A stretch of 21,453 nt of DNA, taken from a virus. A program made the translations under genes and the position numbers. The notes beneath the pieces are model-generated. The model worked only from the letters and a program-made list of their open reading frames with translations, had not been told where the DNA came from and ran no database searches. The stretch lies in the IMG/VR virus record IMGVR_UViG_3300017613_002795, positions 1 through 21,453 of that record. One strand, 5' to 3'. Every line of letters begins with the position of its first letter. Positions within the stretch are counted from its first letter, which is position 1. Below are positions 1 to 21,453 of the stretch, in pieces.

Positions 1-2
1 AG

Positions 3-1484
3 GGAATCCAACCAGGGTTCCAAACAATAGACGTACAGAATTTGTTCCCTGCGACTGATTGTGGCCCTGATGTTCGGCAGGGCTCCTATTGTTTTGAGCG
101 TGCTGTTATATCCAGGCGGAAGTTACTGCAAAAACGGGTGCCGAAAGCCGTTCTGGACGGTTGGCTCATTAAAAATGTAGAAAAGGTATTGCGAGAGGGG
201 CCAAAGGGGATTGAAGGTGTAATGTCGGTAACAACGAGTTCTCAGGAATTTGAACTTTGGTACTACTACGGGTTAGTCCCTAAGGCCACCTTTGATTTGG
301 TTGGAATATCAGTGGAAGATAATCTAGAATCAGTCTGGGCTAATGTAGTTTTAATAAATGATGAGATTGTTAAAATTGGTCCGGCTCCTTTGGAAGATGA
401 GATCCCATACCATTTACTGAAGTGGCGAAAACGTTGGATTGGGGGTAAAGAACACTGGGCAGGTCGTGGAATTGCGGAGGAAGGTGAGTATATTCAGCGA
501 AGTGCAACAGCACATTTACGAAATCTAAATGATAACTCTGCACTTGCAGCAGTACCTCAACGAATTCATTGGAAGGGGATTGTTACTCCAATGAATAAAA
601 TCTATGAGTGGGCACCCGGAAAAGACTGGGTTGTTGAGAATAAGGAATTCTCGCTTGATAATATTAAGGCAGTGGCGAATGCTTTTCAATTCATTGATAT
701 TCCAGCACATTTACCAGAGCTTCGTAATAATATTGAGATGGATCTTCGACTGTTTCAGAAGGTGACTGGAATTGATGATATGGTAATGGGACATGCACAA
801 GTGTCATCGGTAGGCGGAGGGCAAATGCAACTTAATGCTGCTGCACATCTTCCTCGACGAGTAAAGGCATACTATGATGCAAGTATTCTACGGCCAGTGG
901 TTTCACTTGCATTAGCTTGGATTCGTCGGTATAAGAAAGAGGAACTTCCGTTGGGTGATGTTACAGTCACTATTGAGGGGAGTGCAACAGAGATTAAGCG
1001 CGATGTGCAGGCGGCCTCACTTGTTCAATCAATCAATTTGTCAACAAATCCAGTATTTGGGCATGATCCTGCCCTTTTGATGGATAAGTATCTGGAGGGG
1101 AACGAATTTGACCCAGAAACTACGAAGTTGACGCCAGAGCGCCAGCAAGAGCTAGCATCCCTACTCCAGCCCGGTCCTGATGAAAAGGCCCAGGCGGCCG
1201 TGAAGAGTGCAGAACTTCGAGCGGGTGCATTGACGGAACAGGGGCGAATGAAAGCCGAGGGGCATCAGCTTGATACAATTTTGTCGGCTGAAGATGCCGC
1301 TAGAGGCCGAAAGCATGATAAGGAAATGTTGAGTATGAAGATGAAAATGGAGTTGGTTCAGTATGCACAAAAACGGGGAATTGATCTCCAAATAGCAGAG
1401 CAGGAATTGGAAGCCATAAAAATTCCTGAAATGGCTGTTAGTGCCAATTTAGATGCAAAAGGTAATACTAATGAAGATACTTGA
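3..1484 (+). CDS. Portal protein, 5'-truncated by the window edge
   Basis: This is probably the portal, the dodecameric ring at one capsid vertex through which DNA is packaged and ejected. The frame is open from base 3, so the true start lies outside the window. The TTG at 42 is only an internal codon. About 493 residues are visible. Podovirus portal hallmarks are an early strand followed by a basic helix (ISRRKLLQ), a central aromatic strand around YEWAPGKDW, a helical stretch ending in VTGIDDMVMG, and an IRPVVSLALAWIRR helix. The last ~110 residues are Gln/Glu/Lys/Met-rich and strongly helical, as in C-terminal portal barrels or crowns. It is followed by small-protein, scaffold and capsid genes, the classic order, so a terminase large subunit gene is expected just upstream. 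The family call comes from pattern recognition without a search. Confidence 0.82.
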   Translation, partial: GIQPGFQTIDVQNLFPATDCGPDVRQGSYCFERAVISRRKLLQKRVPKAVLDGWLIKNVEKVLREGPKGIEGVMSVTTSSQEFELWYYYGLVPKATFDLVGISVEDNLESVWANVVLINDEIVKIGPAPLEDEIPYHLLKWRKRWIGGKEHWAGRGIAEEGEYIQRSATAHLRNLNDNSALAAVPQRIHWKGIVTPMNKIYEWAPGKDWVVENKEFSLDNIKAVANAFQFIDIPAHLPELRNNIEMDLRLFQKVTGIDDMVMGHAQVSSVGGGQMQLNAAAHLPRRVKAYYDASILRPVVSLALAWIRRYKKEELPLGDVTVTIEGSATEIKRDVQAASLVQSINLSTNPVFGHDPALLMDKYLEGNEFDPETTKLTPERQQELASLLQPGPDEKAQAAVKSAELRAGALTEQGRMKAEGHQLDTILSAEDAARGRKHDKEMLSMKMKMELVQYAQKRGIDLQIAEQELEAIKIPEMAVSANLDAKGNTNEDT

Positions 1485-1734
1485 AGACCACGAGCGGCAG
1501 CAATCGGGTGTGCGAACCATCTTGGCTGAATTGCAAAAGAGCCAGGAGGCTGTGAAAATGGAATGTATTCAATCTAAGGTGGAAGATTTAATGCAGGAAG
1601 CACTCAGGACGCAATGGTATCGAGGACAATTTGCCATTCTTTCCCATTTTATTGACAAAATAGAGAATTCGGAGTATGCTAATAGAAGCGAGGAAGGAAT
1701 CGGCGAGGCGGCATTGCCCCCAAGCCAGCAATAA
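1471..1734 (+). CDS. Small helical phage protein of unknown function (87 aa)
   Basis: I do not recognise a named family. The ATG at 1471 is preferred over the ATG at 1453 because an AAAGG-like ribosome binding site (about 1458-1461) sits just before it, and because it gives a 14-base overlap with the portal end instead of 32. The product is charged and almost entirely helical in composition. The middle (KVEDLMQEALRTQWYRGQF) reads as an amphipathic helix, and the C-terminus is loose and acidic (EEGIGEAALPPSQQ). Small helical proteins in this portal-to-scaffold gap are common in podoviruses and generally uncharacterised. A role in head assembly is inferred only from position. Confidence 0.7.
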   Translation: MKILEDHERQQSGVRTILAELQKSQEAVKMECIQSKVEDLMQEALRTQWYRGQFAILSHFIDKIENSEYANRSEEGIGEAALPPSQQ

Positions 1735-1793
1735 CCAGCACTCTGCGGACCAGTTCCCTTCCAATTGGCCCCCAGAAGAGAGCGAACTACGAA

Positions 1794-2741
1794 ATGACTG
1801 ACGAAACGACAGCGCCTGTAGAACCCAATGAGGCCCCGACATCAGAAACACCTGCGTCTGGACCTCAACTCAATATTGCAGAGAATGGTCTATATGCTGG
1901 AATGGATACTCCAGATCTGGATCTTCTTGATGGCACTGAGGAGCCTGAAGCTCCTGGAGCACCTGCTGAGAAAGAGCTTGAGCCAGAACCACCGCCGGAT
2001 CCAGTTCCTACACATTTCATTGGGGAATTGGATGAAACTGAGGTTTTGGCAGCTATCAAATTGGCTCAACAAGTTCCTGATATCCGGGCCAATGTGGAAC
2101 GGTCTGTTATGGGAAGGCTTGGTCCGATTGCAAAAGAGCTGAAGGATTTGCGAGCCTCTGGATTACGCGAATTTTCATTTGATCCAGAAACAAGCCCGGG
2201 GCTAAAAGAACTTATTGCGTTGGATTCTGGTATTGGAACTGCAATGCAAAAGGTATTGGCTGAGTTAAAGGTTAACTCTTTGGATGTTAAGGCTGCTGTG
2301 CAGCCTTTGCTGAATGAGAGTTTACCTCGTGCTCAGGCTGAAATGCACGATAGATTTCAAGATGATCTGCTACTCCAATTTGTTCCTGATGCATTTGATG
2401 TTGGCCCAACGCCGGAATTTGCCACTTTTATGCGGACCCAACCCCTAGATGTACAAGATGTGTTGCAAGGATGGGGACAGGAAGGGGCACAAGTGGGGCA
2501 AAAAAATGCTAGGACTGCAATTGGTGCGTTTCTGGCCTTTAAAGCAGAGCAAAAAGCAGTAGCTGATGCAAAAACTGTATCAGATCAGAAAAAGAAAGTG
2601 CAGACTAAAAACTTGCAGCGATCAGTTGAAGATGGGCAGTCCGGGAATGGTGGTGCTGGCACCACTTCTGGATTGAGCGAGCAAGAAGCACTGGATACTC
2701 GCATGAAAGACCAGGGCCTCCCCTTTTATCTGAATCCATAG
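1794..2741 (+). CDS. Putative capsid scaffolding protein (315 aa)
   Basis: This probably acts as the internal scaffold that guides coat assembly and then leaves or is degraded. Evidence is position, directly between portal and major capsid genes, and composition. Residues 1-75 are acidic, Pro/Ala/Glu-rich and probably disordered. Residues ~75-260 are helical with few aromatics. The tail from ~245 has a basic coiled stretch (AEQKAVADAKTVSDQKKK), then a Gly/Ser linker and a short conserved-looking end (GLPFYLNP). Scaffold proteins typically bind coat through a basic helical C-terminal region, which fits loosely. A GAAGAGAG site (1775-1782) lies about 11 bases before the ATG. No protease domain is visible. 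Sequence alone does not prove scaffolding. Confidence 0.65.
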   Translation: MTDETTAPVEPNEAPTSETPASGPQLNIAENGLYAGMDTPDLDLLDGTEEPEAPGAPAEKELEPEPPPDPVPTHFIGELDETEVLAAIKLAQQVPDIRANVERSVMGRLGPIAKELKDLRASGLREFSFDPETSPGLKELIALDSGIGTAMQKVLAELKVNSLDVKAAVQPLLNESLPRAQAEMHDRFQDDLLLQFVPDAFDVGPTPEFATFMRTQPLDVQDVLQGWGQEGAQVGQKNARTAIGAFLAFKAEQKAVADAKTVSDQKKKVQTKNLQRSVEDGQSGNGGAGTTSGLSEQEALDTRMKDQGLPFYLNP

Positions 2742-2774
2742 GGTGCTTGGCCTTCTTAAACGATTCCTTCTGAT

Positions 2775-2778
2775 GGAG
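2775..2778 (+). promoter_or_regulatory. Ribosome binding site of the major capsid gene
   Basis: GGAG lies seven bases before the ATG at 2786. It is the clearest Shine-Dalgarno match near the head genes and fixes the capsid start. The 44-base gap it sits in has no convincing promoter or terminator. Confidence 0.7.
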
Positions 2779-2785
2779 ATATAAG

Positions 2786-3844
2786 ATGACAATTTATTAT
2801 GGTACGGTTACCCAGCGAATCGGTATGTGGAAAGCCGATATCCTTTTGCAGGCATCCTACGTTCAAACCTTGCCGGTAACTGGGCCGCAGATGAAAAAAT
2901 TGCCCAAAAATGAGAGCAAAAGCTTGACGTTTCGTCGGTGGCTCCCATTCGGTGATGTTGATAACGAGTTTATACAAGCAGCCACGTCTGATGCGGCAAC
3001 GGCGTTTGCAACGGCACATTTGATTGCAGAGGGGCAAACGCCTAGTCCAGATCAGATTTCACCAGTTGATACTGCGGCTACCCTGCGTTCGTATGGAATG
3101 CTATATTCATTCACCGATGAAACATTTGAATTTCATGAGGATGATATTCCAGATGAAATTATAAATCAATTAGGCAAACGGCGAGGCTCGCTGGAAGAGC
3201 AGATCAATTTTGCAGCTTTGCAAAGTGCTACGTCTGTTCTGTATGCGGGGGGAGGTTCAACCCGAGTCAGTGTGAATGGTACTATCAAATTGCCCGGCCT
3301 TCGATTAGTAACGAGGCGTCTTTCGGATCGTAGTGCCAATATGATGACCAAGAGCACGAAGCCGGGGCCTGGAGAAGGAAGCGCACCAGTCGAATCGGGT
3401 TGGGTGGTTATTACCAATACTGACAACATCAGTACATTTCGTGATATGGACGGGTGGGTAAAAAAGGAGCATTATGCGGGTGCAACGCCACTTCATCCAT
3501 TTGAGCGGGGTAGTGTGGAGGAGTATCGTATTATTGCAACACCCCATCTGAAACCCATTGTAGGTGCAGGTGCCTCTGGAACGAGTGGCTTGAAAACCAC
3601 TGGTGGTTCTGTGGATGTTTATCAGACAATGGTCTTTGGTGAAAAAGCTTGGGGCTGTGTGAATCCGACTCAAGCAAATACTATGAAACCCATTTTGATC
3701 CCGACGGGAAAGGTTGATAAATCGGACCCATTGGGACAGATTGGACTGTATGGCATGAAATTTTGGACCGTTGCTTTAATCCTCAACAATGGTTGGCTTT
3801 ACAAGTATGAGCACGGTGCTGATGCTTTGACTGGTTCGTACTAA
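2786..3844 (+). CDS. Major capsid protein, N4 gp56-like family (352 aa)
   Basis: This is the shell-forming coat protein. The sequence matches the pattern of the N4-gp56 family of HK97-fold coat proteins. There is an N-terminal QTLP segment near 27-30, then a basic RRWLPF turn at 50-55. LIAEGQTP at 79-86 leads into RSYGMLYSFTDETFEF at 101-116. A mid-protein receptor-like strand TNTDNISTFRDMDGW lies at 210-224. The closing DPLGQIGLYGMKFWT at 314-328 is followed by a hydrophobic strand with NNGWLYKYEHGA. Length is normal for the family. It follows the scaffold and precedes two small genes likely to encode shell-bound proteins. The start is set by GGAG at 2775-2778. This is one of the most secure calls in the window. 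HK97-like maturation cleavage is not evident. Confidence 0.9.
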   Translation: MTIYYGTVTQRIGMWKADILLQASYVQTLPVTGPQMKKLPKNESKSLTFRRWLPFGDVDNEFIQAATSDAATAFATAHLIAEGQTPSPDQISPVDTAATLRSYGMLYSFTDETFEFHEDDIPDEIINQLGKRRGSLEEQINFAALQSATSVLYAGGGSTRVSVNGTIKLPGLRLVTRRLSDRSANMMTKSTKPGPGEGSAPVESGWVVITNTDNISTFRDMDGWVKKEHYAGATPLHPFERGSVEEYRIIATPHLKPIVGAGASGTSGLKTTGGSVDVYQTMVFGEKAWGCVNPTQANTMKPILIPTGKVDKSDPLGQIGLYGMKFWTVALILNNGWLYKYEHGADALTGSY

Positions 3845-3859
3845 GAGGGAGATGCAATA

Positions 3860-4372
3860 ATGCGGAATGAAATTGATATTGGGTCCGCGCTAGGCGGAAT
3901 GACCCCAGGCCGTGATTTGCGGCATCTTCGACGCCTGATGGAAGCCGCCTTAGTTCCAATGCAAACGCAGCTTCTTACAACGACTGCTCTGGGGATCAAG
4001 GTTGCTGGATCGGCACTGGCTGCATCTTCAGCGACTGTTACGTATCAAGTAGGGGGGCAATTAGCGACAAAAGCATCCTCTGATATGGCGGCGCTTTCGG
4101 GAACTGTGACTAACGCAGCCTTTAACGTGTATGTTTTCTCAATCACGTTGGGTGGAACTCTGGTGACTAGGATGGGACTGGAAGGTGCCACACTGGTGAC
4201 GGTGAAGTTTCCTTCCATTCCCGAGGAGGAAGCTGTTCTGGGCTTCGTTATCATTAATCCGACCGGAACCGGAAACTTCGTAGGTGGAACGACTGAACTG
4301 GATGATGCGACTGTCGTTCCAACTGCCTCCTTCGTTAACACTCCATTCCCCTTCAACCCCTATTTGAGGTAA
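3860..4372 (+). CDS. Probable head-associated virion protein (170 aa)
   Basis: The gene starts 15 bases after the capsid stop with AGGGAG (3846-3851) eight bases before the ATG. The N-terminal ~40 residues form a basic helix beginning RNEIDIGSALGGMTPGRDLR. From ~45 to the end it is Thr/Val/Ala/Gly-rich with alternating hydrophobics, which suggests beta-sandwich or fibre-like structure. The end is aromatic/proline-rich (FVNTPFPFNPYLR). That layout, a helical anchor followed by a beta domain, would suit a capsid decoration or head-fibre protein, and the position directly after the coat gene supports it. I do not recognise a characterised homologue. Its 3' end uses many C-ending codons, like the next gene, consistent with high expression. 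Confidence 0.7.
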   Translation: MRNEIDIGSALGGMTPGRDLRHLRRLMEAALVPMQTQLLTTTALGIKVAGSALAASSATVTYQVGGQLATKASSDMAALSGTVTNAAFNVYVFSITLGGTLVTRMGLEGATLVTVKFPSIPEEEAVLGFVIINPTGTGNFVGGTTELDDATVVPTASFVNTPFPFNPYLR

Positions 4373-6246: not shown

Positions 6247-7368
6247 ATGGCTATAACAGAACGATACTGTGATTGCGATCTCGCTACCGGGCTGAATGAC
6301 GGCACAAGTGAGGCGAATGCCTGGCAAACATTGGCTGCTGCTTCAAATACAACCACTGGGATTCAGCCGGGAGAAAGATGTAATATAAAACGTACATCGT
6401 CACCCCATGACCCTGGGGCACATGTCACGTTCAGTAAGGCCGCGACTGTTACAGCCCCGGTCCATCTACGCGGATATACGTCCACTATCGGGGATGGTGG
6501 ACTTTTTCAGTGTCATTTCTCCAGCGCCACATATAAGTTTGCTATCTCGGGCCATCAAATAATAGCCGAAGGATTGGATATTAAGGGATCACGTGCAGCG
6601 GTATTATTGGATATAACGGGGAAGAATGCCACTGTATATAGATCAATAATAACAACAGATAGCTCTACAGGGCAAGCGGTGAATATGCTATATGCCAACA
6701 TTTTAAATAGCCATATAGTTGGAGAGGGAAGCTCTTCAACGCATACAGTACGATCAGCAGGTGGCTGTGTTAGCAATTGCCTTATAGAAAGTAATGGAGC
6801 GGATAAGGCAATTGAGATGAAATCCGCATATGCATGCATAATCTCAAATAATGTTATTATAGGGGCGGGGACTGATATTGGTATCGAGATGAATGGTACG
6901 ACTACTCTGATAAATGCAGCTACTGGCAATAGGATATATAACTTTAACGATGGTATTAAGATCGTGCAGATGCCTGGAGTGAGTGGCTACCCGTATATTA
7001 TTCAAGCTAACAGTATTTATGATGTAGCCACAGGGATAAATAATGCAGATACAGAACAAACAACCATGAGGTTGATTGGGAATGGTATAGGCGGAGCGAC
7101 AACAGCACGATATAGTGGTTTTGGTGATGCGCCGATTCTACAGGATATTGTTTTAACGGCTGATCCTTATGTTGATGCAGCAAATGACGATTTAACACTA
7201 AATAATACTGCAGGAGGTGGAGCACTTCTCCGAGCCGCTGGCTTTCCAATTAACATGCCATATGATTGGGCTAATATGACAGAAAAAGAAACTTATGAGG
7301 GTGCTGGCGGTGGTGGCGTACTTGTTCCACAAGGGCTTCATCCGATCGGTGCGGGGATTATCGCATGA
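6247..7368 (+). CDS. Pectate-lyase-like beta-helix virion protein (373 aa)
   Basis: This is likely a right-handed parallel beta-helix protein, the fold used by many tailspikes and some polysaccharide depolymerases. The start has the typical entry motif of such proteins, a Y-x-D-x-D-L-A-T-G-L-N-D-G-T-x-x-x-A-W pattern followed by an LAAA helix cap. Residues ~50-310 then show irregular coils of short beta strands separated by Gly/Asn/Ser turns, with several NxI and GNxI rungs (e.g. SNNVIIGAG, GNRIYNF, ANSIYDV). The end is Gly-rich (EGAGGGG) with a short GLHPIGAGII tail that may be an attachment or oligomerisation piece. No catalytic residues can be assigned. The Shine-Dalgarno signal is weak. 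The last four bases overlap the next gene (ATGA), so the two are coupled and may form one appendage. Confidence 0.72.
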   Translation: MAITERYCDCDLATGLNDGTSEANAWQTLAAASNTTTGIQPGERCNIKRTSSPHDPGAHVTFSKAATVTAPVHLRGYTSTIGDGGLFQCHFSSATYKFAISGHQIIAEGLDIKGSRAAVLLDITGKNATVYRSIITTDSSTGQAVNMLYANILNSHIVGEGSSSTHTVRSAGGCVSNCLIESNGADKAIEMKSAYACIISNNVIIGAGTDIGIEMNGTTTLINAATGNRIYNFNDGIKIVQMPGVSGYPYIIQANSIYDVATGINNADTEQTTMRLIGNGIGGATTARYSGFGDAPILQDIVLTADPYVDAANDDLTLNNTAGGGALLRAAGFPINMPYDWANMTEKETYEGAGGGGVLVPQGLHPIGAGIIA

Positions 7369-9650
7369 GAGTTCCTTCAGGTGTAACAGACCAATATATC
7401 TATCTTGTTGCAGTAGACGCAACGGATCTCAAGACGCGTGAAACAGGTCTTACCGGATTTACAGTGTATCGGTCACGGGATGGCGCTGCTGCCGCTGCGA
7501 TGACTACGCCGACAGTAAATGAAACGGATGCCACCAACATGCCGGGCGTCTATGAGTTGTTGCTGGATGAGGATACAACTATTGCCGCTGGAAACGATAG
7601 TGAAGAATTTGTTCTGCATATAACTCAAGCGAGTATGGCTCCAGTTACTCGGGTGATCGAACTCTATCGTCCGAAGATTACACAGGGATATACGCTTGGC
7701 GTGGAAAGCGATGGTGATTTGACTAAAGTAAATGCGCTGGATGGGCATACTGCACAAACAGGAGACAATTATGTAAGGATTGGAGCAAATGGCGCTGGTC
7801 TATCTGCGTTGCCGTGGAATTCGTCCTGGGATTCCGAAGTACAAAGTGAGTGTACAGATGCGCTGAATGTCTATGACGGCCCAACCAACTCCGAATTGGT
7901 TGCGGCTTTTACTGAGATAAAGGGTGCAACATGGGCAAGTGCCACAGATACATTGGAAGAAATTCGAGCCCGAGGAGATACCGCATGGAGGACTGCAACG
8001 AGTGTAACGGTTAGCGATAAGACGGGATTTTCACTTGTGGCGGACCAATCCGGCGTAACAGTCGGAACGATTAATTTAATAGCTGGGACGATTGGAACGC
8101 TTGATGCACTTGATACGGCACAAGATTCGCAACACACTACCACACAGGCCAATCAAACTACAATATTAAATCGTATTGGGGCTTTTACTGGGTCTGGAGT
8201 TAACACTGTTCTTGGCTTCTTAAAAGCGTCTCTGTCAAAAGTAGCAACGAATCCTAGTGATTTGGGTGGTACTTATGATGCTGCTACGGATGCGAACGAA
8301 GCCATTCGTGATGAAGGAGATACCAGTTGGGGTTCGAGCGGCACAAATCCTAACGTGTTGCTTACGGCTGAGATTGCAGTTGTTACAGATCAAACACACT
8401 TCACATTAGCCACTGGGAGCACAGAAGACGATGCGTACAAAGATCAGTCAGTTGTGCTCTACGATGATACCAACTCCGATTATCCAAGTATTCGCAAAGC
8501 AACGGCATATACGGGAGCGACGAAAACGCTCACTATCGACAGTGCTCCAGACTTCACTCTCGGGGCAGATGATTCTATTCGTATATTCGTAACAGCTCCG
8601 GGTGCTACTGCACCTACCACATCAGAAAATGCTGCTGCGGTTTGGGGGCTGGCTCGATCTGGAAATTCCAGCGCGGGTTCGTTTGGAGAGGGTGTAGCTA
8701 GCGTGCAGGGTAATGTTACGGGCTCTGTAGGTTCTGTAACGGGGGCAGCTGGCTCTGTTACTGGCAATGTGGGGGGTAATGTAACTGGTTCGGTTGGAAG
8801 TGTAGTAGGTGCTGTTGGTTCTGTAACAGGGGCTGTTGGGAGTGTGACGGGTGCTGTTGGCTCTGTAACGGGTTCAGTTGGTTCAATTGCTGGTGTGTCC
8901 TTTCCAACGAATTTTTCAGACCTTTCAATTACTCTAACTACTGGGCGAGTTGATGTAGCTGCTATTGCAGGAATAGCCCAGACTGCAAATGATAATGGAT
9001 TAGATATTAATACATTAATTACCCAGATTGGTACTGCGGGAAATGGTCTTACTGCGGTTCCATGGAATGCTGCATGGGATTCAGAAGTACAGAGTGAGTG
9101 TAATGATGCTTTAACGACAATTCACTTGGATCATTTGTTTGCGGTAGACTACGATCCCGCAGCTAAACCTGGTGTTGCTACAGCACTATTAAATGAACTG
9201 ATAGAAAACGATGGAGGAATATCTCGCTATACCGCAAATGCCTTGGAGCAGGCACCCTCTGAGGCAGCAGCATTAGCAACAATTGATACCGTAGTGGATG
9301 CAATTAAAGTTGTTACTGACAATTTACCTGATTCCGGGGCTCTTACTAGTTTGGCAACTGCGGCATCCATTACTACATTGAATAATGTATCGACGTTAGA
9401 TATTAATAGTGAAATAGTTGATGCTTTGACTGTAGACACTGTAACACAACCGGGGCAGGGAAGCCCATCTGCCAATCAAACACTAGCTCTGATGGTTGCT
9501 TATCTATACAAAGAATGGAGAAACAAAAAGGATTATAATGGCACTACGAGACAGCTTTATAATGATGGCAGTACTACCGTGGATCAAAAACGAACTACCA
9601 CTGAATCAGGTGGTACTGTGGTGAGTACTGAAGTTACCACCGGGCCATAA
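7365..9650 (+). CDS. Modular repeat-rich appendage protein (761 aa)
   Basis: This is probably a fibre or tail/head appendage subunit. Modules in order are: residues 1-105, a beta domain (DQYIYLVAVDATD to IELYRP) resembling N-terminal domains of other phage appendage proteins; 143-163, a GAGLSALPWNSSWDSEVQSE block; ~200-208, an IRARGDTAW block followed by a beta hairpin domain; 314-322, a second IRDEGDTSW block and another beta domain (to ~420); 449-507, a Gly/Ser/Val/Thr heptad tract; 561-579, a second PWNAAWDSEVQSEC block; then Thr/Asp/Ala-rich helices to ~725, and a polar end containing an RNKKDYNGTTRQLYNDG segment. The doubled blocks show that it grew by internal duplication. It is translationally coupled to the beta-helix gene upstream (ATGA). 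Host binding is plausible but not shown. Confidence 0.72.
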   Translation: MRVPSGVTDQYIYLVAVDATDLKTRETGLTGFTVYRSRDGAAAAAMTTPTVNETDATNMPGVYELLLDEDTTIAAGNDSEEFVLHITQASMAPVTRVIELYRPKITQGYTLGVESDGDLTKVNALDGHTAQTGDNYVRIGANGAGLSALPWNSSWDSEVQSECTDALNVYDGPTNSELVAAFTEIKGATWASATDTLEEIRARGDTAWRTATSVTVSDKTGFSLVADQSGVTVGTINLIAGTIGTLDALDTAQDSQHTTTQANQTTILNRIGAFTGSGVNTVLGFLKASLSKVATNPSDLGGTYDAATDANEAIRDEGDTSWGSSGTNPNVLLTAEIAVVTDQTHFTLATGSTEDDAYKDQSVVLYDDTNSDYPSIRKATAYTGATKTLTIDSAPDFTLGADDSIRIFVTAPGATAPTTSENAAAVWGLARSGNSSAGSFGEGVASVQGNVTGSVGSVTGAAGSVTGNVGGNVTGSVGSVVGAVGSVTGAVGSVTGAVGSVTGSVGSIAGVSFPTNFSDLSITLTTGRVDVAAIAGIAQTANDNGLDINTLITQIGTAGNGLTAVPWNAAWDSEVQSECNDALTTIHLDHLFAVDYDPAAKPGVATALLNELIENDGGISRYTANALEQAPSEAAALATIDTVVDAIKVVTDNLPDSGALTSLATAASITTLNNVSTLDINSEIVDALTVDTVTQPGQGSPSANQTLALMVAYLYKEWRNKKDYNGTTRQLYNDGSTTVDQKRTTTESGGTVVSTEVTTGP
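8709..8885 (+). repeat. Heptad G-S-V-T-G-x-V coding repeat
   Basis: Within the 761-aa gene, residues 449-507 consist of about eight copies of a seven-residue unit G-S-V-T-G-x-V (x = A, S or N), with one extra Gly in the fourth copy. The 21-base units use different synonymous codons (for example GGT TCT GTA ACA, GGG AGT GTG ACG, GGC TCT GTA ACG). The amino-acid pattern is therefore conserved while the DNA has drifted, which suggests protein-level selection rather than a fresh slippage product. Confidence 0.9.
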
Positions 9651-13499: not shown

Positions 13500-14690
13500 A
13501 TGTTAGTACTTACTGACAATTTACTGGGCATCGGGATCCCCGATGCAGTACTCACTAATGCTAAGAGAGATTTGGTGGATGGTCTTAGTATATCCGATTC
13601 TCTACCATTTCCAGCTATCAGCCTTGAGGCGGTTGATGGGTTTACTATTTCGGACTCCCTAGCTTTCCCTATCCGGGTTATTGCCTGGGCGGAGCAACTT
13701 GAATTAACTGATGAAGTGTCTCAAGTATTTCTGGGCAGTGCGGAATTCCTAGAGGAGTTAGAGCTATCTGAAAGTTTGGGGTTTGGAAGTCTTCTAGAAT
13801 TTATTGAAACGCTGACATTGAGTGATACAAGTTTTGACAGTATCATAACTGCTGTTATCTTTAGTGATATTATACAATTGTCAGGGACTCTTACTGAATT
13901 ACCAAACTTTGCTCCTACATTTGTATCCGCATTAACTTTATCGGATATTGTTAATTCTAGTAGGGATTTGACACTAGTTGATGGTATTGTGGTAAGTGAC
14001 GTTTTTACTGATATTCTACGGACAATAACAGAAACAGTTGAGAGTTTAATATTATCAGATACTCTCTCAAATGTTCTTGCAATTTTCACATCATTTTCCG
14101 ATGGAGTGGAGTTAAGTGAAGCAGTTACAGTACAGGCTGCATTCAATATCCTATTGAATGACTCTTTACTATGTGGAATGGAAATCACGCTGAATGGTGA
14201 GGAGTATGTAGCTTGGGTATTGAATCCACAGAACAAGGCATTTACTAAATACACTAATTGGCCATTCAATTCTTTTGTTTCATTGGCTCAAAATACTTAT
14301 GGATTATCAGATGAGGGAGTTTCCATACTGGAGGGAAATAATGATGCGGGGCAGAATATCCCTTTCCAGTTATCTTCAGGCTTAATGGATTTTGGTAGCC
14401 CAGAACAAAGTAACCTTCGCCATGCTTATATGGGAGTTGTTTCCGGTGGTGATTTAGTTTTGAAGGTTATTTCAACTGCTGTAGGACAACGGACTGAGGA
14501 CTACTATAGGCTTCGAGGGATGGAGGGCTCTTCAATATTTGAAACGGTTCAATCATTTTCCAATGCTGTACAGGCTCGATTTTGGCGTTTTGAAGTAGAG
14601 AATTTGCGGGGAGCTGATTTGCAATTAGATGGAATTCATTGGCGTGTTGTTAAGCTGAGGCGTAAGGTTGGAGGTAAGGGGAAAGGATAA
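13500..14690 (+). CDS. LSD-repeat protein with phage tail-type C-terminal domain (396 aa)
   Basis: The N-terminal ~220 residues are built from about ten degenerate repeats centred on [LIV]-[ST]-[DEG] at residues 31, 50, 69, 89, 107, 127, 147, 165, 185 and 205 (spacing 18-20). The consensus is roughly [FV]-x-[DE]-x-[LI]-x-[LI]-S-D-[ST]-[LV]. The C-terminal ~170 residues form a separate domain, beginning near GMEITLNGEEYVAWVLNP, with NWPFNSFVSL, Gly-rich turns, YYRLRG, and a terminal ARFWRFEVENLRGAD strand leading to a basic end (KLRRKVGGKGKG). This type of C-terminal domain is one I associate with phage tail structural proteins. The protein sits directly before the nozzle-like gene. An elongated tail or neck appendage is likely, and function is otherwise unknown. 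Confidence 0.7.
   Translation: MLVLTDNLLGIGIPDAVLTNAKRDLVDGLSISDSLPFPAISLEAVDGFTISDSLAFPIRVIAWAEQLELTDEVSQVFLGSAEFLEELELSESLGFGSLLEFIETLTLSDTSFDSIITAVIFSDIIQLSGTLTELPNFAPTFVSALTLSDIVNSSRDLTLVDGIVVSDVFTDILRTITETVESLILSDTLSNVLAIFTSFSDGVELSEAVTVQAAFNILLNDSLLCGMEITLNGEEYVAWVLNPQNKAFTKYTNWPFNSFVSLAQNTYGLSDEGVSILEGNNDAGQNIPFQLSSGLMDFGSPEQSNLRHAYMGVVSGGDLVLKVISTAVGQRTEDYYRLRGMEGSSIFETVQSFSNAVQARFWRFEVENLRGADLQLDGIHWRVVKLRRKVGGKGKG
13572..14159 (+). repeat. Coding LSD repeat array (about ten units)
   Basis: Residues 25-220 of the protein starting at 13500 carry about ten units of 18-20 residues with an alternating hydrophobic strand, then [ST]-[DEG], then a variable loop. DNA copies are divergent, so repeat-finding at nucleotide level would underestimate it. 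The regular period suggests a beta-solenoid or extended fibre rather than a globular fold. Confidence 0.85.
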
Positions 14691-16021
14691 TGGCCAGGGC
14701 TCGAAATGAATTTGTATTGGCAGTTAATCGCTTCCTTGGTGTTAATATGAGAGCTAAGGAGTCAGATTTAATTCAACCTACTATTGGACAAGAGCAACCG
14801 GGTGCATTAGAGCAACGAGTAGCAAATAATGTAGATATTACCGATACGACTGGGCAAGGTAAGAATACAGTACAACGGAGGGTTGGATATCAATTAGCTG
14901 TTGCGTTGGTTGGAGCACATTCAGGTGTGCGGGCGGTTGATGGGGAGCGTATTCTCTGTGGGTCTGCTTCTGGAATTGCCTTAGTGCAACCGAAAAATGG
15001 TACATACGAAATCCTATTCACACCAAATGCGCCAATGTCTCCCATCTCATGGACTAGATTTACTAATCGAGTATATTGGACAAATGGGGAAGAACATGGT
15101 GTAATTATAGAAGAGCAGGCAAAAACTTGGGGTGTTCCTAGGGCAGGTCGTGTGACAACGACGGCTGCAGTGACTGGTAACCTTCTAGCTGGAGACTACC
15201 AAGTTTTGTGTACTTTTCTTCGAGATGGCGAAGAGGGTGGTACTGGAATTGGTGTTAGTTGTACTGTAGAAGCAGGCGGAGGTATTATTGTAGATCTTCC
15301 ACAAGCAACTGATGCTGATATTATTCGTGTTTATATGACGGAACAAAATGGGGATGTATTTTTTCGACATTCTGATTTACCAATGGGAACAGCCCAATTC
15401 TTACTGACAAAAAAGTCGCCATTGGGTAAAGAGTTACAAACTCAATGGACAGCACCACCTCCAATAGGAACTCTGCTTTGTAAACATAATAGTCGGATCC
15501 TAATTGCTAAAGGCAATCTTCTATACTACACAATGCCCCAACTTCCAGGACTTTATCAACCATCAATTGATATCTTACCGCCACTGGCTGGCCAAATTCG
15601 GATGGTGCAATCGGTAGAGGATGGTATCTGGGTAGATGATGGTCGCCTATTGTTTATTCCATTTCAGAAGGCTGAAGATCCTGAATTACATAATATGCTA
15701 GATTTCGATTACTCAACTATTCCAGGAACAGCTCAAAGTTGTCCTCCATTTTGGTTTGGTCTCCAGGGGATTAAACAAAATGTTATTTTCTTCTGGACTC
15801 GACGCGGATTTCCTATGGTGGCGGGCCCAGGGGGGATGCTGGTACCAATTGGTGAGGATAAAATGGCAATTTCGGATTATTCCGATGGGGCCTCATTGTT
15901 GCGAGAGCAGGGGGGTTTTCGACAAATTCTGACCTCTTTTGGTACAAATGCGCCAAAATCGAAATTTGGTGCTTCCGATTCATTGGAAGTTACTGTTCAC
16001 ATGCGGGGAGAGATTGAATGA
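14690..16021 (+). CDS. Tail nozzle-like protein (P22 gp10 / T7 gp12 type, 443 aa)
   Basis: This probably forms the lower part of the short tail tube and closes it until ejection. Evidence: an N-terminal NRFLGVNMRAKE segment followed by VANNVDITDTTGQGKNTVQR and RVGYQLA, the usual 'NF-x-G-x-N ... NVDI ... R-x-G' opening of tail nozzle proteins. Repeated beta-propeller-like strands follow (AVDGERILCGSASG, FTNRVYWTNGEEHG, KTWGVPRAGR). Later comes HNSRILIAKGNLLYYTMP, then an IRMVQSVEDGIWVDDGRLLFI blade. It starts from a one-base overlap with the previous TAA. Length is shorter than T7 gp12 but close to the P22 gp10-like range. It neighbours an LSD-repeat tail protein and, 4.5 kb away, the adaptor. 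The call is by sequence pattern without a search. Confidence 0.75.
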   Translation: MARARNEFVLAVNRFLGVNMRAKESDLIQPTIGQEQPGALEQRVANNVDITDTTGQGKNTVQRRVGYQLAVALVGAHSGVRAVDGERILCGSASGIALVQPKNGTYEILFTPNAPMSPISWTRFTNRVYWTNGEEHGVIIEEQAKTWGVPRAGRVTTTAAVTGNLLAGDYQVLCTFLRDGEEGGTGIGVSCTVEAGGGIIVDLPQATDADIIRVYMTEQNGDVFFRHSDLPMGTAQFLLTKKSPLGKELQTQWTAPPPIGTLLCKHNSRILIAKGNLLYYTMPQLPGLYQPSIDILPPLAGQIRMVQSVEDGIWVDDGRLLFIPFQKAEDPELHNMLDFDYSTIPGTAQSCPPFWFGLQGIKQNVIFFWTRRGFPMVAGPGGMLVPIGEDKMAISDYSDGASLLREQGGFRQILTSFGTNAPKSKFGASDSLEVTVHMRGEIE

Positions 16022-16743
16022 ATACATTACATAAGTTGGTAAAGCACAGAAGAGAGGTTTTAGCTTCTGTCAAGAAGTTAGGTGTGCGTCAAGACGGAGA
16101 GTTTCTTGTTGTAAATGGGTTAGATTTGGGTCTGGCTGGGCGCCTTTCCGTTTCCTGTTGGGTAGATCGTAGAATTGCAAAAGCGCTTGGAGAGAAGGAT
16201 TCTGAGCAGCATCAAGTAGCTATCTCACTGGTAGAGAGGGAGATACGAGGTGGAAAATTACCCCATCTTGTGCCTATTACGGAAATTTCTCAACCAAATA
16301 CCTGGTTTAACGAAGGCATTACAGAAATGCTGGACGTAAATTTCCGGTATCAAACTCAGCATCAAAATGGATACTTTCTAATTGGTATTAATGACGTGAC
16401 GCCCGTTGTTGGATGGACTTCTGGTTCGGGTGGTACCAATATCCGTACTACATTTGGTGAGTTTACTGCTTATACGGCTTCGGGCAGCGCCGTAAATCGG
16501 CAAGTATGGACCCCGGATGCTGCAGCAAGTCAAGCAATTAAGAACGATACAACGGGGGCTACTATTGTTTGTACGGGAACTGGCACAATTCGGGGCGCTT
16601 GCCTCATGACGGCTCAAGCAAAGGATGGTACCAGTGATTCAACTGGATATGCGTGGGCAGGATCTCGTACAACTACAGATTTACCTGCGGCAAGTACTTA
16701 TGAATTCACATTCAAACACCAACTAACTGGTTCTGCCAGTTAA
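16018..16743 (+). CDS. Tail-associated protein with beta C-terminal domain (241 aa)
   Basis: The ATG overlaps the nozzle stop (ATGA), with GGGGAGAG (about 16005-16012) upstream. Residues 1-90 are basic and helical (VKHRREVLASVKKLG ... QVAISLVEREIRGGK). From ~95 a second domain starts at NTWFNEGITEMLDVNFRY and continues with NGYFLIGINDVTPVVGWT. It then has a Thr/Ser/Gly-rich beta region with RQVWTPDAAASQAIKN and a final strand. The second domain's order, 'N-x-G-[IL]...LDV ... tyr-rich strand ... R-x-x-WT ... A-x-x-x-I-x-N', is one I associate with virion or tail-fibre proteins in phages. Coupling to the nozzle gene suggests the product joins the tail tip. The exact role is unknown. Confidence 0.65.
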   Translation: MNTLHKLVKHRREVLASVKKLGVRQDGEFLVVNGLDLGLAGRLSVSCWVDRRIAKALGEKDSEQHQVAISLVEREIRGGKLPHLVPITEISQPNTWFNEGITEMLDVNFRYQTQHQNGYFLIGINDVTPVVGWTSGSGGTNIRTTFGEFTAYTASGSAVNRQVWTPDAAASQAIKNDTTGATIVCTGTGTIRGACLMTAQAKDGTSDSTGYAWAGSRTTTDLPAASTYEFTFKHQLTGSAS

Positions 16744-16758
16744 ATTGGGGGTCCTAAA

Positions 16759-18618
16759 ATGCCTTGTACTAGCCTCGGTTCTGGTGGTGCGTCTCAAACT
16801 GTTGATACTGTTTTTGCCGCTCAGAGACAGTATGCACATGATAATTTCACGGCTTTGCAGACGGATATTTCTGCCTATCTTAGTGCTATACAAGCCCTGG
16901 GAAACTTGAACCTTAATACTAATATTACGTGGAATGCTCCCACGGGTGTTGGTTATGGTTTTCAGCATGCGACTCCAGTATCTCCGTTTACAGATACTGT
17001 TACTGTCCCGGCTACTCCACAAGCACGTATAGTAGGAACGCCTCAAGTTCCCACATTAGATACTGTTGGGAGCGCACCCACGAAGCCAAGTTTGCCTGTT
17101 TTGAACTCCCCTTCACCTTGGGTGGGCGAGGTTCCTTCAGATGTTCCTGTTATCCCTGATGCTGATGATATAGCCAGGCCGCTTTATACAATTCCGAAGG
17201 CTCCTACATTATCAAACATACCATCTGTTGCACTTCCATTATTATCCTTGCCTGAATTCAGTGGAGTTGCACCCGATACCAATGTAGCGGTTCCTATTTT
17301 ACTGTCCCCGGAGGACGAAGTTGCCTATACGTCAACGATGTTAGATTCCTTGCAAAGTCAGATTCTTACAGTTTTACAGGGAAATCGCGGATATTTGGAT
17401 GAGATATTTGATGCTATTTGGGCACGAGAGCAGCGAAATGAGTTTGCTACTGCACAACGAGCACGGGAGTCGGTGCAAGAGCTATGGGGATCTCGTAATT
17501 GGGATTCCCCTGGAGGAGTGGAAAGTGAGCAACTTTTGCGAATCGATCAAGACCTAATGCAGCAACAAACAGGCCGTGCCCGAGATTTGGCAATTGAGCA
17601 AAATAAGGTAGAAGTTGAGCGGTTTATGCAGCATTTAACGCAAGGAATCGCGCTTGAAAGTAGGCTGATTCAGTATGAAGAGGGACGCGCGCAACGGAGC
17701 TTGCAAGCTAGAGAACTCTTTAATGCCGCTGCGGTTCAATTGTTTTCTGCAACAATAGAACGGATCAATTTGGATCTACAAGCATATCAAATTGAGGCGC
17801 AGGTATATGGAGAATTAATTAAAGCGGAGGTATTGAAGTTAGAGAAAACAGAAAAAGAATTACAAATTGCATCTCTGCAGAATGAAATTGATCAGAGTCG
17901 TGTTCAATTGTATGTAGCTCAATTGGAGGGAGTTCAGAAAATCCTGGATGTTTATGTTGCAGAATTGCAAGGCGTGGAAGCAAAAGTCAAGATTGGGCAG
18001 ACGCAGGTGGCAGCTTTCGCAGAAAAGGTAAAAGCTGTTGGCTTGGAAATTCAGGCCAAGGAGTTGGAATTTAAGGGATTTAGTGCACAGGTGCAAGGGC
18101 AATTAGGGCAGGTACAGATTTTTGGCGCTGAAACGCAGGCATTTGCTTCCCGAGCGCAAGCTATTAATAGCACGAACAATAGCCGAACGACGTTGTATCA
18201 GGGAGAGATTGAGGGCCAACGATTGGTACTTAATCAGATTGAGCAAGATACGCGGTTATTTTCCGCTCTACTGGATGGGGAAGTGAAACGGTTCGATGGG
18301 ACTGCTCGGGTTCATGGACAAGATATTCAGGCATTTGTTAGTCGTAATCAGGCCGAAGCAAATAGAGTTCAAGCCGATGCAGATCAATTTCGGGCGCTTG
18401 TGGAACGGGCGAGAGCAGAGGAGAGTTTGAAGTTGCAGCAGGGACAGATAAATGCCAATAATGTATTACGAATTGCAGAGCTAGAAGTGGGGGGCTTGGA
18501 TAGTATAATGAATGTCCATGCGCAAATCGGTTCGGCAGCGATGTCAGCATTGAATGCTAGTGCTGGTATTCAAGGATCCGATATTGCTAACTGGAATTTT
18601 AACCACGATTGTTCTTGA
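16759..18618 (+). CDS. Pro-rich plus coiled-coil virion protein (619 aa)
   Basis: No enzyme motif is seen. Residues 1-70 are a short helical/beta entry. Residues ~70-185 are a proline-rich linker with P every 4-8 residues. From ~190 onward the protein is almost wholly helical, Gln/Glu/Ala-rich, with long stretches suited to a coiled coil or helical bundle. A WAREQRNEFATAQRARESV segment near 221-239 is followed by a SPGG turn at 250-253. An IGSAAMSALNASAG near the end is a second Ala-rich helix. Candidate roles are an ejected internal virion protein or a tail-needle/spacer. The position, after the tail genes and before two more charged proteins, favours an internal protein. GGGGG (16747-16751) is the likely ribosome binding site. 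Confidence 0.65.
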   Translation: MPCTSLGSGGASQTVDTVFAAQRQYAHDNFTALQTDISAYLSAIQALGNLNLNTNITWNAPTGVGYGFQHATPVSPFTDTVTVPATPQARIVGTPQVPTLDTVGSAPTKPSLPVLNSPSPWVGEVPSDVPVIPDADDIARPLYTIPKAPTLSNIPSVALPLLSLPEFSGVAPDTNVAVPILLSPEDEVAYTSTMLDSLQSQILTVLQGNRGYLDEIFDAIWAREQRNEFATAQRARESVQELWGSRNWDSPGGVESEQLLRIDQDLMQQQTGRARDLAIEQNKVEVERFMQHLTQGIALESRLIQYEEGRAQRSLQARELFNAAAVQLFSATIERINLDLQAYQIEAQVYGELIKAEVLKLEKTEKELQIASLQNEIDQSRVQLYVAQLEGVQKILDVYVAELQGVEAKVKIGQTQVAAFAEKVKAVGLEIQAKELEFKGFSAQVQGQLGQVQIFGAETQAFASRAQAINSTNNSRTTLYQGEIEGQRLVLNQIEQDTRLFSALLDGEVKRFDGTARVHGQDIQAFVSRNQAEANRVQADADQFRALVERARAEESLKLQQGQINANNVLRIAELEVGGLDSIMNVHAQIGSAAMSALNASAGIQGSDIANWNFNHDCS

Positions 18619-18620
18619 TT

Positions 18621-18626
18621 GGAGAT
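18621..18626 (+). promoter_or_regulatory. Ribosome binding site that decides the start at 18632
   Basis: GGAGAT lies five bases before the ATG at 18632. It supports this start over the in-frame ATG at 18554, which would overlap the previous gene by 65 bases, and over the out-of-frame ATG at 18627. Confidence 0.65.
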
Positions 18627-18631
18627 ATGAT

Positions 18632-19717
18632 ATGTCGGATTATGGTGGTAAAGACACAGGGAAGAAGCTGACGGAACAAGCTAGATCTGGTGAGGCTGGA
18701 TGGCTACAATTTATAGAGGATTACCAGGCAGGGAAACCCCAGGCAGGGAAACAGCTCCGGGACTGGGGAGGACGCTGGCTGAACGAACAACAATTCCGCC
18801 GGTACGTGAAAGAACAGGCACTTACCGGAAAGACATCTGAGAAACCACTTAAATCAGCTAAGAGACCACCTACGAAAACTATAGTGGCTAGACAAGATGC
18901 TGAGCATCGCCTCCCTCCATTGGTAATTGGGGGGCCTAGAGCTGGTAGTTACGAACAGAAAACGCATGCAATATCGGGACCGGGCGCGGATAATTATACA
19001 GCAGAGCAGTGGGATAAGATGTCGGGGGCTCAACGAACTCAAGCTAATGTAGATGCGTATAAGACACAAACTGCGGACATTCGAGCTTCAAAGGCACGAA
19101 TTGCGGACATTCGAGCTTCAAAGCGTAAGCCGGAGCAAACGCGACTTGTCGCTGCTACCATAAATCAAATGTCTCAGGGAGATCGAGAGCGGGCACTGCA
19201 GGGATACAGGATGGCTGTTGGGGGACTGCAAAATGATTTACGCCGAGGGCGACTTACAGAAAAAAAGGGAAAGATAATTGGTGAAATGCTGCAGGATCAT
19301 TATAATAAAGCTTTGGGCGGAGATTTATCGGGACTGATGGAAGAGGAGGCGAGGCAAAAGGGGGGACTGATGCAAGAAAAGGCGAAACAAAGGGGGGAAT
19401 TGATGACCCAGCGTGTACGAAATGAGGGAGGATTGGCAGTAGCGCAAGAGCAGCAGGCAAATGTTAAAAAACCGGAAAGAGCCAAAACTTATAAGCTGAC
19501 AAATATTGGATCTCCTATTGAGCCTAAATGGGTTCAAGAGGATAGCGCTGGAGGAATTACTCCATATAGCCCTACAGAGAGTTCGGCTCCCCTAACTCCA
19601 GAACAACGAGAGACTGCAATGAGGCTGCTCCGAATAAGAATTGAGGGATTACCACCAGAGAAGAGAGAGGCGGGTATTGCAGAATTCAAGCGGCGTTTTC
19701 CTGGTGTAGATTATTAA
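18632..19717 (+). CDS. Charged basic protein, putative internal virion protein (361 aa)
   Basis: I do not recognise the family. The start is chosen from GGAGAT at 18621-18626. The product is rich in Lys, Arg, Glu and Gln, has no membrane segment, and is probably part disordered and part helical. Features in order: an AGKPQAGKQ duplication near residues 33-41, a basic linker (KSAKRPPTKT), two identical ADIRASK units at 148-154 and 158-164, a long helix with DNA-like basic content, a GGLMQEKAKQRGELM repeat-like stretch around 240-255, and a C-terminal region ending GVDY. Its place between the coiled-coil protein and the giant gene and its charge suggest a packaged, DNA-associated or ejected protein. 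This is inference only. Confidence 0.6.
   Translation: MSDYGGKDTGKKLTEQARSGEAGWLQFIEDYQAGKPQAGKQLRDWGGRWLNEQQFRRYVKEQALTGKTSEKPLKSAKRPPTKTIVARQDAEHRLPPLVIGGPRAGSYEQKTHAISGPGADNYTAEQWDKMSGAQRTQANVDAYKTQTADIRASKARIADIRASKRKPEQTRLVAATINQMSQGDRERALQGYRMAVGGLQNDLRRGRLTEKKGKIIGEMLQDHYNKALGGDLSGLMEEEARQKGGLMQEKAKQRGELMTQRVRNEGGLAVAQEQQANVKKPERAKTYKLTNIGSPIEPKWVQEDSAGGITPYSPTESSAPLTPEQRETAMRLLRIRIEGLPPEKREAGIAEFKRRFPGVDY
19072..19123 (+). repeat. Exact 22-base direct repeat (period 30)
   Basis: Two identical 22-base copies (19072-19093 and 19102-19123) lie in frame within the 361-aa gene and give two ADIRASK units ten residues apart. The exact DNA match marks a recent in-frame duplication, unlike the diverged repeats elsewhere in the window. 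A second short duplication (AGKPQAGK) sits near 18726-18752. Confidence 0.9.
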
Positions 19718-19718
19718 A

Positions 19719-21453
19719 ATGAGCACATTAATCCTGCCTTCAAATGAAGAACTTCTTGCGCAACACCAACAAGTGTTGCCGAGTAATGAAGAGTTACTGG
19801 CGGCACATGCCCCAGAGCCTGAAGAGCCGCCTGAGCAAGCTACAGGTGTTGTTTCTTCTTTCACTGGTGGAGTTGGCAGGGGTTGGGATCAGGTAGAAGC
19901 CTTGATGGGCGGGGCTGCTGGGTTAGTTGGGACTGGATTGGGATTGGAGGGGTTGGAGTCCTGGGGGCAAGAAACGTATCATGAAAATATGCAGGAAGCT
20001 CAGCGATATATTCCAAAGGAGGGAGCAGCTACCTTTGCTGAATCAGATTCGGTATCAGATTATGCAAATTGGGCAGCCAGCACGCTTGGTTCGTTGATAC
20101 CAACTATGGCTGTTTCGATGGCTGGTGGTGGGGTTGGTGGTCTTGTTGGAAAGGCGCTGTTGAAAAATGCCGTTAAGAGTGCAATCGCAAAGAAGGTAAC
20201 TGCCAAGGTGGCCCAAGGTGTAGGTGCTGGAGTTGCTGGAACTGCAATGGCCTCAGGGGGCATTTATGGAACTCAAGTTTTTGGTGAAGGGTTAGATGAG
20301 CGAAACGAACCGGATGTTGGAACGGCCTTGCTGTATGGTATTCCATCTGGAGCGTTTGATGCAATTGTACCTACGCGCTTATTGGGAAAATTGGGAGTTG
20401 GCCGTGGAACTGCGCAGACTGCAGGAGATGTTCTGGGAGATCGAAAGAAACGAGCGGCGTTGGCAAATGCATTAAGGGAAGCGGTGAAAACGGCGCCAAT
20501 GGAAGGGCTGACAGAAGTGGGACAGGGCATTCTAGAACGGGCTGCCCAACAAGATTTCAAGGGGATACTGAATACACCAGAGGGATTGGATAAGGTCTTT
20601 GATTCTAAACAAGCTGTAGAAGAATTTATGGCTGGGTTGCTAGGAGGTGGAACCGCTGGTGGTATTGTTGGGGCCGTACAGGGAAAACGCCAGATTGCTG
20701 CGAGGGATGCAGAAGAACGGAAACTGATGGGGGAGTTAGAGACTCGGAGACAGGCGCAACAGGGAGAGCAAGCGCAAGAGGCGCAACTTCGAGAGCTAGA
20801 AGAAGAGAGACAGCAGGAAATTGATCGGACTCCTGAAGGAACTTTTGATCCTGGCTTTGAGGGATTGGCTCCAATGAGGACAGCTCAGGAAAGAGAGCGT
20901 CAAATTGAGCTAATGTCTCCTAAAGAAATTCCAACTAAAGGTCCGACTCTTACAGGAGTTCAGGTAGATGAGGAAGTTGGAGAGGATATTACCCTAACAG
21001 GCCCAGCGCCAAAGCCTCCAGTAACTGTAGAAGAGTTTGGGATTCCTGAAGAAACAACAATTCCGCCGGTACGACCGACTCCACAAGAGCTTGTTCAGGA
21101 GACTGAGCGAGGTGTGGCACTTGAACCAGCAAAGCGGGAGGAACAGGAGCAATTTAGGGCTGAATCTGATTGGCAGATAGCTAAGACTGAGAGAGACCGA
21201 AAACGAGAAGACTTGCGCCAACAAGTTGAACAAGGTCGAGTAGAACAAGTTGTTAAGGAATCGCAGCCACCTTCTAATACTCTAATGGCTACACCCGAAA
21301 TGCGGAATTTGCGTGGACAGCTAACAGAGGAAAGAGTGAATCGGCAGATCGAAACAAGAGAGAGTGAGGCTGAATATGTTGGTGGAATTGAGGATGAGTT
21401 ACAAGATCTTCATGGAGAGGATGTACAACGGAAGAGGCAGGTTGCAGCTGAAG
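19719..21453 (+). CDS. Giant internal virion/polyvalent protein, N-terminal part (3'-truncated)
   Basis: The frame is open from the ATG to the window end (at least 578 residues). A one-base gap follows the previous stop. The very start has a duplicated LPSNEELLA-x-H motif (residues 6-15 and 20-29). Residues ~42-100 are helical with a GVGRGWDQVEALMGGAAG segment. Three Gly/Ala-rich hydrophobic segments follow (~119-147, ~163-185 and ~302-320). Residues 258-280 hold an amphipathic TAPMEGLTEVGQGILE helix. From ~325 on it is a highly charged Glu/Gln/Arg coiled coil with Pro/Thr linkers. This resembles N-terminal parts of very long phage internal or polyvalent proteins that are ejected with the DNA. 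A virion RNA polymerase (as in N4) or a murein-cutting domain could lie beyond the window, but none is visible here. Confidence 0.65.
   Translation, partial: MSTLILPSNEELLAQHQQVLPSNEELLAAHAPEPEEPPEQATGVVSSFTGGVGRGWDQVEALMGGAAGLVGTGLGLEGLESWGQETYHENMQEAQRYIPKEGAATFAESDSVSDYANWAASTLGSLIPTMAVSMAGGGVGGLVGKALLKNAVKSAIAKKVTAKVAQGVGAGVAGTAMASGGIYGTQVFGEGLDERNEPDVGTALLYGIPSGAFDAIVPTRLLGKLGVGRGTAQTAGDVLGDRKKRAALANALREAVKTAPMEGLTEVGQGILERAAQQDFKGILNTPEGLDKVFDSKQAVEEFMAGLLGGGTAGGIVGAVQGKRQIAARDAEERKLMGELETRRQAQQGEQAQEAQLRELEEERQQEIDRTPEGTFDPGFEGLAPMRTAQERERQIELMSPKEIPTKGPTLTGVQVDEEVGEDITLTGPAPKPPVTVEEFGIPEETTIPPVRPTPQELVQETERGVALEPAKREEQEQFRAESDWQIAKTERDRKREDLRQQVEQGRVEQVVKESQPPSNTLMATPEMRNLRGQLTEERVNRQIETRESEAEYVGGIEDELQDLHGEDVQRKRQVAAE

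Follow-up and report, generated by a model that had tools for sequence, protein, structure and literature searches.

The last gene of an uncultured virus contig probably encodes the front part of a large phage ejection protein with a conserved Gly/Ala-rich module

What kind of protein is encoded by a gene that is still open when the virus record carrying it comes to an end? The window analysed here is a whole IMG/VR virus record of 21,453 bases, and its last gene is cut by the record end. The open reading frame (ORF) at 19719-21452 starts with ATG and continues for 578 codons with no stop codon up to the window edge. An earlier note, made from the letters of this DNA, had claimed that the frame continues past the window, and this is borne out by the end of the record itself. 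The same note had taken the product for an ejection protein, and we come to the same reading: the last gene probably encodes the N-terminal part of a very large protein of the kind that is carried in the head and shot into the bacterium by short-tailed phages. Scans of the ORF with Pfam, NCBIfam and PADLOC gave no usable domain, and a thylakoid match in NCBIfam (E 0.002, 18.7 bits against a cut-off of 58) was rejected as Gly-rich similarity. Neither a tRNA, nor an Rfam family, nor a strong promoter or terminator bearing on the gene was found. The features discussed below are collected in Table 1.

Table 1. Position of the features in the window; residue numbers refer to the protein encoded by the last gene.
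Feature	Coordinates	Strand	Evidence or remark
Portal protein, 5' truncated	3..1484	+	phrog_1216; SU10_portal just under cut-off
N4-gp56-family major capsid protein	2786..3844	+	TIGR04387, E 7e-48
Head-closure Hc3-like protein (phrog_8040)	14690..16021	+	PHROG
619-aa virion-associated protein, phrog_10969, two genes 5' of the giant gene	16759..18618	+	PHROG, homologues
Gene directly 5' of the giant gene, ~361 codons	18632..19717	+	ORF listed from 18554; likely start 18632
Probable large ejection-protein gene, 5' part (578 codons)	19719..21452	+	ORF list, record end, homologues; 3' end beyond contig
Duplicated peptide, copy 1 (ILPSNEELLAQH, residues 5-16)	19731..19766	+	0/300 shuffles reach the repeat score
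Duplicated peptide, copy 2 (VLPSNEELLAAH, residues 19-30)	19773..19808	+	Repeat score
Putative injection module, helical and Gly/Ala-rich, residues ~43-330	19845..20708	+	Family alignments, blastp; no Pfam family
Segment 1, residues 58-79, signature GxxxGxDQxxALxGG	19890..19955	+	Hydropathy, alignment; absent from the earlier note
Segment 2, residues 119-147	20073..20159	+	Hydropathy
Segment 3, residues 163-185	20205..20273	+	Hydropathy
Segment 4, residues 200-222	20316..20384	+	Hydropathy; absent from the earlier note
Conserved motif EGLTEVGQ, residues 262-269	20502..20525	+	Family alignment; E262, E266 and Q269 conserved across the family
Segment 5, residues 302-322, Gly-rich, last part of the module	20622..20684	+	Hydropathy, alignment
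Low-complexity charged/Pro-rich linker with helical stretches, residues 345-578	20751..21452	+	No recognised domain

The gene sits among late virion genes, with a portal, an N4-gp56 capsid protein, an Hc3-like protein, a probable scaffold gene and connector-type genes upstream. The window follows the order of the N4 gp50 type, that is, portal, capsid, connectors, two smaller genes and giant; in N4 itself the genes run 59-57-56-55-54-53-52-51-50, where 59 is the portal, 56 the capsid protein and gp50 comes last. Phage DEV expresses its giant polymerase gp71 together with the adjacent gp72 and gp73 from co-transcribed genes, and all three are ejection proteins (PMC10925440). Hollowayvirus H66 and phage 8P are laid out in the same manner, their last gene ahead of holin/endolysin being very large, and a giant gene occupies the corresponding place in phage 8P (5,145 aa), Shewanella phage Y11 (3,372 aa) and ctwe8250 (2,166 aa). 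According to its annotation, the positional counterpart in H66, H66_0060 (3,787 aa), has been verified as a virion component by mass spectrometry. Hollowayvirus, phage 8P and ctwe8250 also encode a homologue of the phrog_10969 protein ahead of their giant gene. For the gene directly 5' of the giant the likely start is at 18632; the listed ORF, from 18554, overlaps the preceding gene. This gene sits where a periplasmic-tunnel ejection protein would be, a putative function read from position only; ORF 18554-19717 has no sequence similarity to the neighbours of giant genes in the relatives described below.

The cluster is also mosaic. Its portal, capsid and adaptor genes (1-4000) match ctsTn925/G001-type phages, and ORFs 13500, 14690 and 16759 (13500-18618) match Hollowayvirus and Acidovorax phage AP1. 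ORFs 13500 and 14690, though not 16759, are in the match set of Methanosarcina virus MetMV (L013, MK170447.1), which encodes homologues of the Hc3-like protein and of ORF 13500 and has a last gene of ~9 kb. Tandem repeats were also noted. Within ORF 7365-9650, which probably encodes a tail or fibre protein, a 21/42-base repeat at 8780-8881 gives a Gly/Val-rich (GSVTGAV)n array, and ORF 18632-19717 contains in-frame repeats of 30 and 33 bases at 19061-19123 and 19330-19405. Many relatives (L047-L061) share a conserved set directly 5' of the giant gene, consisting of a ~190-aa protein with an MCGGGGD-like start, two proteins of 145-240 aa and a ~500-aa coil protein.

The encoded protein had been described as carrying three Gly-rich, membrane-like segments, at residues 119-147, 163-185 and 302-320 (20622-20678). 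All three are correctly placed, Gly/Ala-rich and adjoined by K/R residues, but the count was too low, as segments at residues ~58-79 and ~200-222 bring the total to five. The GxxxG-like spacing also holds: residues 1-345 contain 16 GxxxG, compared with 7.9 +/- 2.4 in composition-preserving shuffles (P ~0.001), and 5 hydrophobic 19-residue windows, compared with 2.4 in shuffles (P ~0.03). The most consistently hydrophobic segment in the family is the second (mean best Kyte-Doolittle (KD) value 1.34, 17 members). The best KD window of the window protein is 1.40 and no segment reaches the usual transmembrane threshold of 1.6; 'membrane-like' is hence the right wording, and 'transmembrane' would be unproven. 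The N-terminal domain (NTD) of N4 gp50 falls in the same range, with best windows of 1.47, 1.39 and 1.29. This domain inserts into nanodiscs and is joined to the remainder of gp50 by a low-complexity linker of ~100 aa (PMC12633501). Marginal hydrophobicity fits, without proving it, a protein that is stored soluble in the head and enters a membrane later. By analogy with N4 gp50 and T7 gp16, the Gly-rich segments of the window protein would likely insert into the inner membrane.

Structure prediction added little to this picture. Two AlphaFold models were all-helical and of low confidence (pLDDT 53 and 55), and fold claims from both were dropped as too weak; such as they are, they do not suggest an enzyme fold in residues 1-578. 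The 'long charged coiled coil' of the earlier note survives in part: a helix is predicted at residues 297-370, but a Pro/Glu-rich stretch and separate helices at 455-514 and 526-563 follow, so that the coil is not continuous. A profile search of the PDB returned coiled-coil noise only. Comparison of the weak model with BFVD by Foldseek retrieved mostly first pieces of giant phage proteins (polyvalent, RelA/SpoT, helicase and one RNA polymerase fragment), a tally which hints that similar modules may front many cargos.

We now turn to the homologues. A scan of IMG/VR with an alignment of a capsid pair opened the family and gave 24 loci, and two of these records encode homologues of the N-terminus. 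A three-sequence alignment of the window protein, G001 and G005 gave 18 IMG/VR loci, all 18 confirmed at E<=0.01. In total, homologues of residues ~45-330 were found in 18 IMG/VR records and one Desulfobacula MAG, at 25-38% identity. The protein of G001 (IMGVR_UViG_3300032260_000005) is 30% identical over residues 48-290 (blastp, E 1e-24) and complete at 915 aa, and that of G005 (IMGVR_UViG_3300038466_000035) is 27% identical (blastp, E 5e-15), has at least 4,790 aa and is open at its own contig end. Both resemble the window in their head genes (portal and capsid protein), in the module (27-30% identity) and in a duplicated N-terminal peptide; they differ from each other in what follows, a ParB-like motif within 915 aa in G001 and an Acb1-like/methylase/helicase/ART (ADP-ribosyltransferase) cargo in the longer G005 protein. 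Among the complete relatives, 14 of 15 measure 2,080-3,409 aa and the remaining one 915 aa. The window protein very probably exceeds 2,000 aa at full length, and the word 'giant' is likely but not certain to apply to it, one homologue having only 915 aa.

Several motifs stand in register across the alignments (GxxxGxDQ.QAL.GG, L..P....GG.GG, EG.xE..Q and AAG..GG). The window protein has the motif set of the module family (GxxxGxDQxxAL, LxP...GGxGG and EGxxExxQ), in which single positions vary in some members, and the Gly/Ala pattern is kept by alignment in 17-19 of them. No Pfam family covers the module in the scan of the window protein. The window matches phrog_6958 (8e-9), which PHROG names 'virion structural protein', and so do 8 of 15 N-termini of the family. 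Of these 15, one matches the DarB-like phrog_10089 and two the virion RNA polymerase phrog_2206, at best with 3e-5; a search of nine phage records with phrog_6958 gave no match, but its controls were silent too. Profile comparison with the N-termini of Hollowayvirus giants gave E 2e-5, compared with 0.17-0.91 for five shuffled controls, and hhalign gave no significant match between the window family and the N4 gp50 NTD (E 0.36). Searches with single proteins were negative: tblastn of the ORF against 50,697 phage records gave nothing at E<=0.01, IMG/VR yielded no match to the ORF or to three neighbours, and phmmer/HMM comparisons of the window with single Hollowayvirus, N4 and other giants were not significant, the bias filter stripping the Gly/Ala signal.

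Ahead of the module, LPSNEELLA occurs twice in tandem at the N-terminus of the window protein. Such a tandem duplication of a short peptide precedes the module in 8 of 23 giants, namely the window, G001 (L043), G005 (L042), H66, 8P, L056, L063 and L065, and in each case 0 of ~300 shuffles reached it. In comparison, 4 of 160 control phage ORFs show one at p<=0.01 (Fisher 7e-6, an approximate value since cut-offs differ slightly between giants and controls, and H66 and 8P are related). The peptide is lineage-specific, with KPWEEF, YSPEDxxxIxxG, DPFAE and WWxDxxQxAAY among its forms, and no further copy of the duplicated motif is present in the window or in the H66 and 8P stretches. This feature has apparently not been described before. 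We propose from sequence that it may serve as a docking or packaging tag. More speculatively, the ~330-residue module could be a cargo-independent injection domain of many uncultured podoviruses, and the peptide a lineage-private tag pairing each giant with its own core or tunnel proteins.

Past the common front end, the cargo differs among relatives, being LPD38, an ADP-ribosyltransferase, or a DarB-like methylase-helicase with an Acb1-like phosphoesterase. LPD38 was found in 6 of 13 relatives, and LPD37 together with ART in one (L063). The G005 protein carries an Acb1/2H domain, an Eco57I-type methylase, a DarB-like SNF2 helicase (phrog_10089, 1,418 bits) and ART-PolyVal. Along its sequence (L042:5631-20000), the Acb1-like 2H domain lies at residues 576-677, with the DarB-like methylase-helicase and the ADP-ribosyltransferase behind it. 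This 2H phosphoesterase resembles the anti-CBASS protein Acb1, with Pfam PF23474 just over cut-off, PDB Acb1 entries at E 0.004-0.012 and two HVT motifs read by eye, and an injected anti-CBASS activity is possible. The tail of the G001 protein shows a ParB-like DGRHRAIAAKELG motif, seen by eye only and with no Pfam match. As to the window protein itself, PHROG, Pfam and NCBIfam revealed no cargo domain in its 578 residues. None of the enzymes that the earlier note had suggested looking for was detected in this part of the protein, and there was no match to a lytic enzyme (Pfam, NCBIfam and PHROG, residues 1-578); of those enzymes, ADP-ribosyltransferase and helicase do appear in the relatives, whereas the relatives scanned all lacked a match to an RNA polymerase family. 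Likewise, Pfam detects no LPD or known polyvalent enzyme domain in residues 1-578, and such domains are present in relatives. It looks as if the contig ends inside an apparent low-complexity linker, ahead of the enzyme part of the window protein. Judged from the relatives, its most likely cargo would be antirestriction or host-modifying (methylase-helicase, ParB-like, ART or LPD) rather than an RNA polymerase.

The window protein joins a known class, the large phage ejection or polyvalent proteins, with a front-end module that lies outside Pfam. As with polyvalent proteins (Iyer et al. 2017, PMC5512222; P1 DarB-like, H66_0060), the gene ends the virion cluster and the relatives bear LPD38, LPD37, ART-PolyVal, a DarB-like methylase-helicase and a 2H domain. 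These relatives have the two or more unrelated domains by which polyvalent proteins are recognised, whereas the window protein is cut by the contig end at codon 578 and shows no cargo up to there; its family also differs in having an N-terminal module with no Pfam family. N4 gp50 and DEV gp71 are similar in closing the gene order, behind the portal, the N4-gp56 capsid protein, the connectors and a pair of smaller genes, and in having a helical NTD with marginally hydrophobic Gly/Ala segments and a low-complexity linker next to it; in contrast to gp50, no RNA polymerase was seen in the window family, and its match to the gp50 NTD is not significant. In T7 and P22, gp16 is likewise the largest ejection protein and the last of its set, a helical protein stored in the head, with putative membrane-entering regions. 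The window protein differs in showing no N-terminal transglycosylase, a feature of the T7 branch that P22 gp16 also lacks (PMC8954989), in its other cargo and in having no detectable sequence relation to these proteins.

With high confidence, then, we regard the gene as the 5' part of a gene for a large third ejection protein of an N4-capsid-type podovirus, a reading supported by the homologues, the lengths and enzymes of the relatives, the N4/DEV gene order and the annotated presence of the H66 counterpart in the virion. The best reading of its action, by analogy with N4 gp50, DEV gp71 and T7 gp16, is an injection front end followed by a low-complexity linker and a cargo. On the model of T7, N4 and DEV, the protein would be packaged in the head, pass the tail partly unfolded and dock on a tunnel made by the products of the preceding genes. 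Its Gly-rich helices would then insert into the inner membrane, and the C-terminal enzyme cargo would be held in the cytoplasm on the linker, as proposed for N4 gp50.

The foremost alternative is a smaller, non-enzymatic protein of module, linker and short tail, forming the inner-membrane part of a DNA channel in the style of P22 gp16. The G001 protein, complete at 915 aa, among the closest matches and with only the ParB-like motif in its tail, is built in this way; as the other 14 complete relatives exceed 2,000 aa and the low-complexity region of the window protein already spans 230 residues without an end, we consider this improbable. Less probable still is an N4-like (Schitoviridae) giant virion RNA polymerase. 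The N4-gp56 capsid protein, the N4-like gene order and the two phrog_2206 matches among module relatives speak for it, and the capsid identity to N4 of only ~23%, the non-significant NTD comparison and the failure to find this polymerase in any relative scanned speak against it. A structural or tape-measure-like protein retained in the particle, with the Gly-rich segments as assembly or packing elements, has a slimmer chance again: the C-terminal part is charged and coil-like and phrog_6958 is named merely for virion structure, but the DNA methylase, helicase, ART and phosphoesterase domains of the relatives need the cytoplasm, and the connectors are those of a podovirus, with a tape-measure context absent. 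Finally, chance Gly/Ala low complexity in an ordinary cytoplasmic protein, to which the marginal hydrophobicity and low-confidence models might point, is already contradicted by the aligned pattern of 17-19 members, by GxxxG counts above shuffles and by the place of the gene in a late virion cluster, and is hardly credible.

The means by which phages move proteins of several thousand residues along a tail too narrow for the folded chain, and then over two membranes, have so far been studied mainly in T7 and N4. The family described here offers a compact front end (~330 residues) that can be aligned and that comes with natural cargo swaps, from 915 aa to at least 4,790 aa, so that the question of the minimal injection domain becomes directly testable. 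The lineage-specific duplicated peptide is, in addition, a concrete candidate for an addressing signal.
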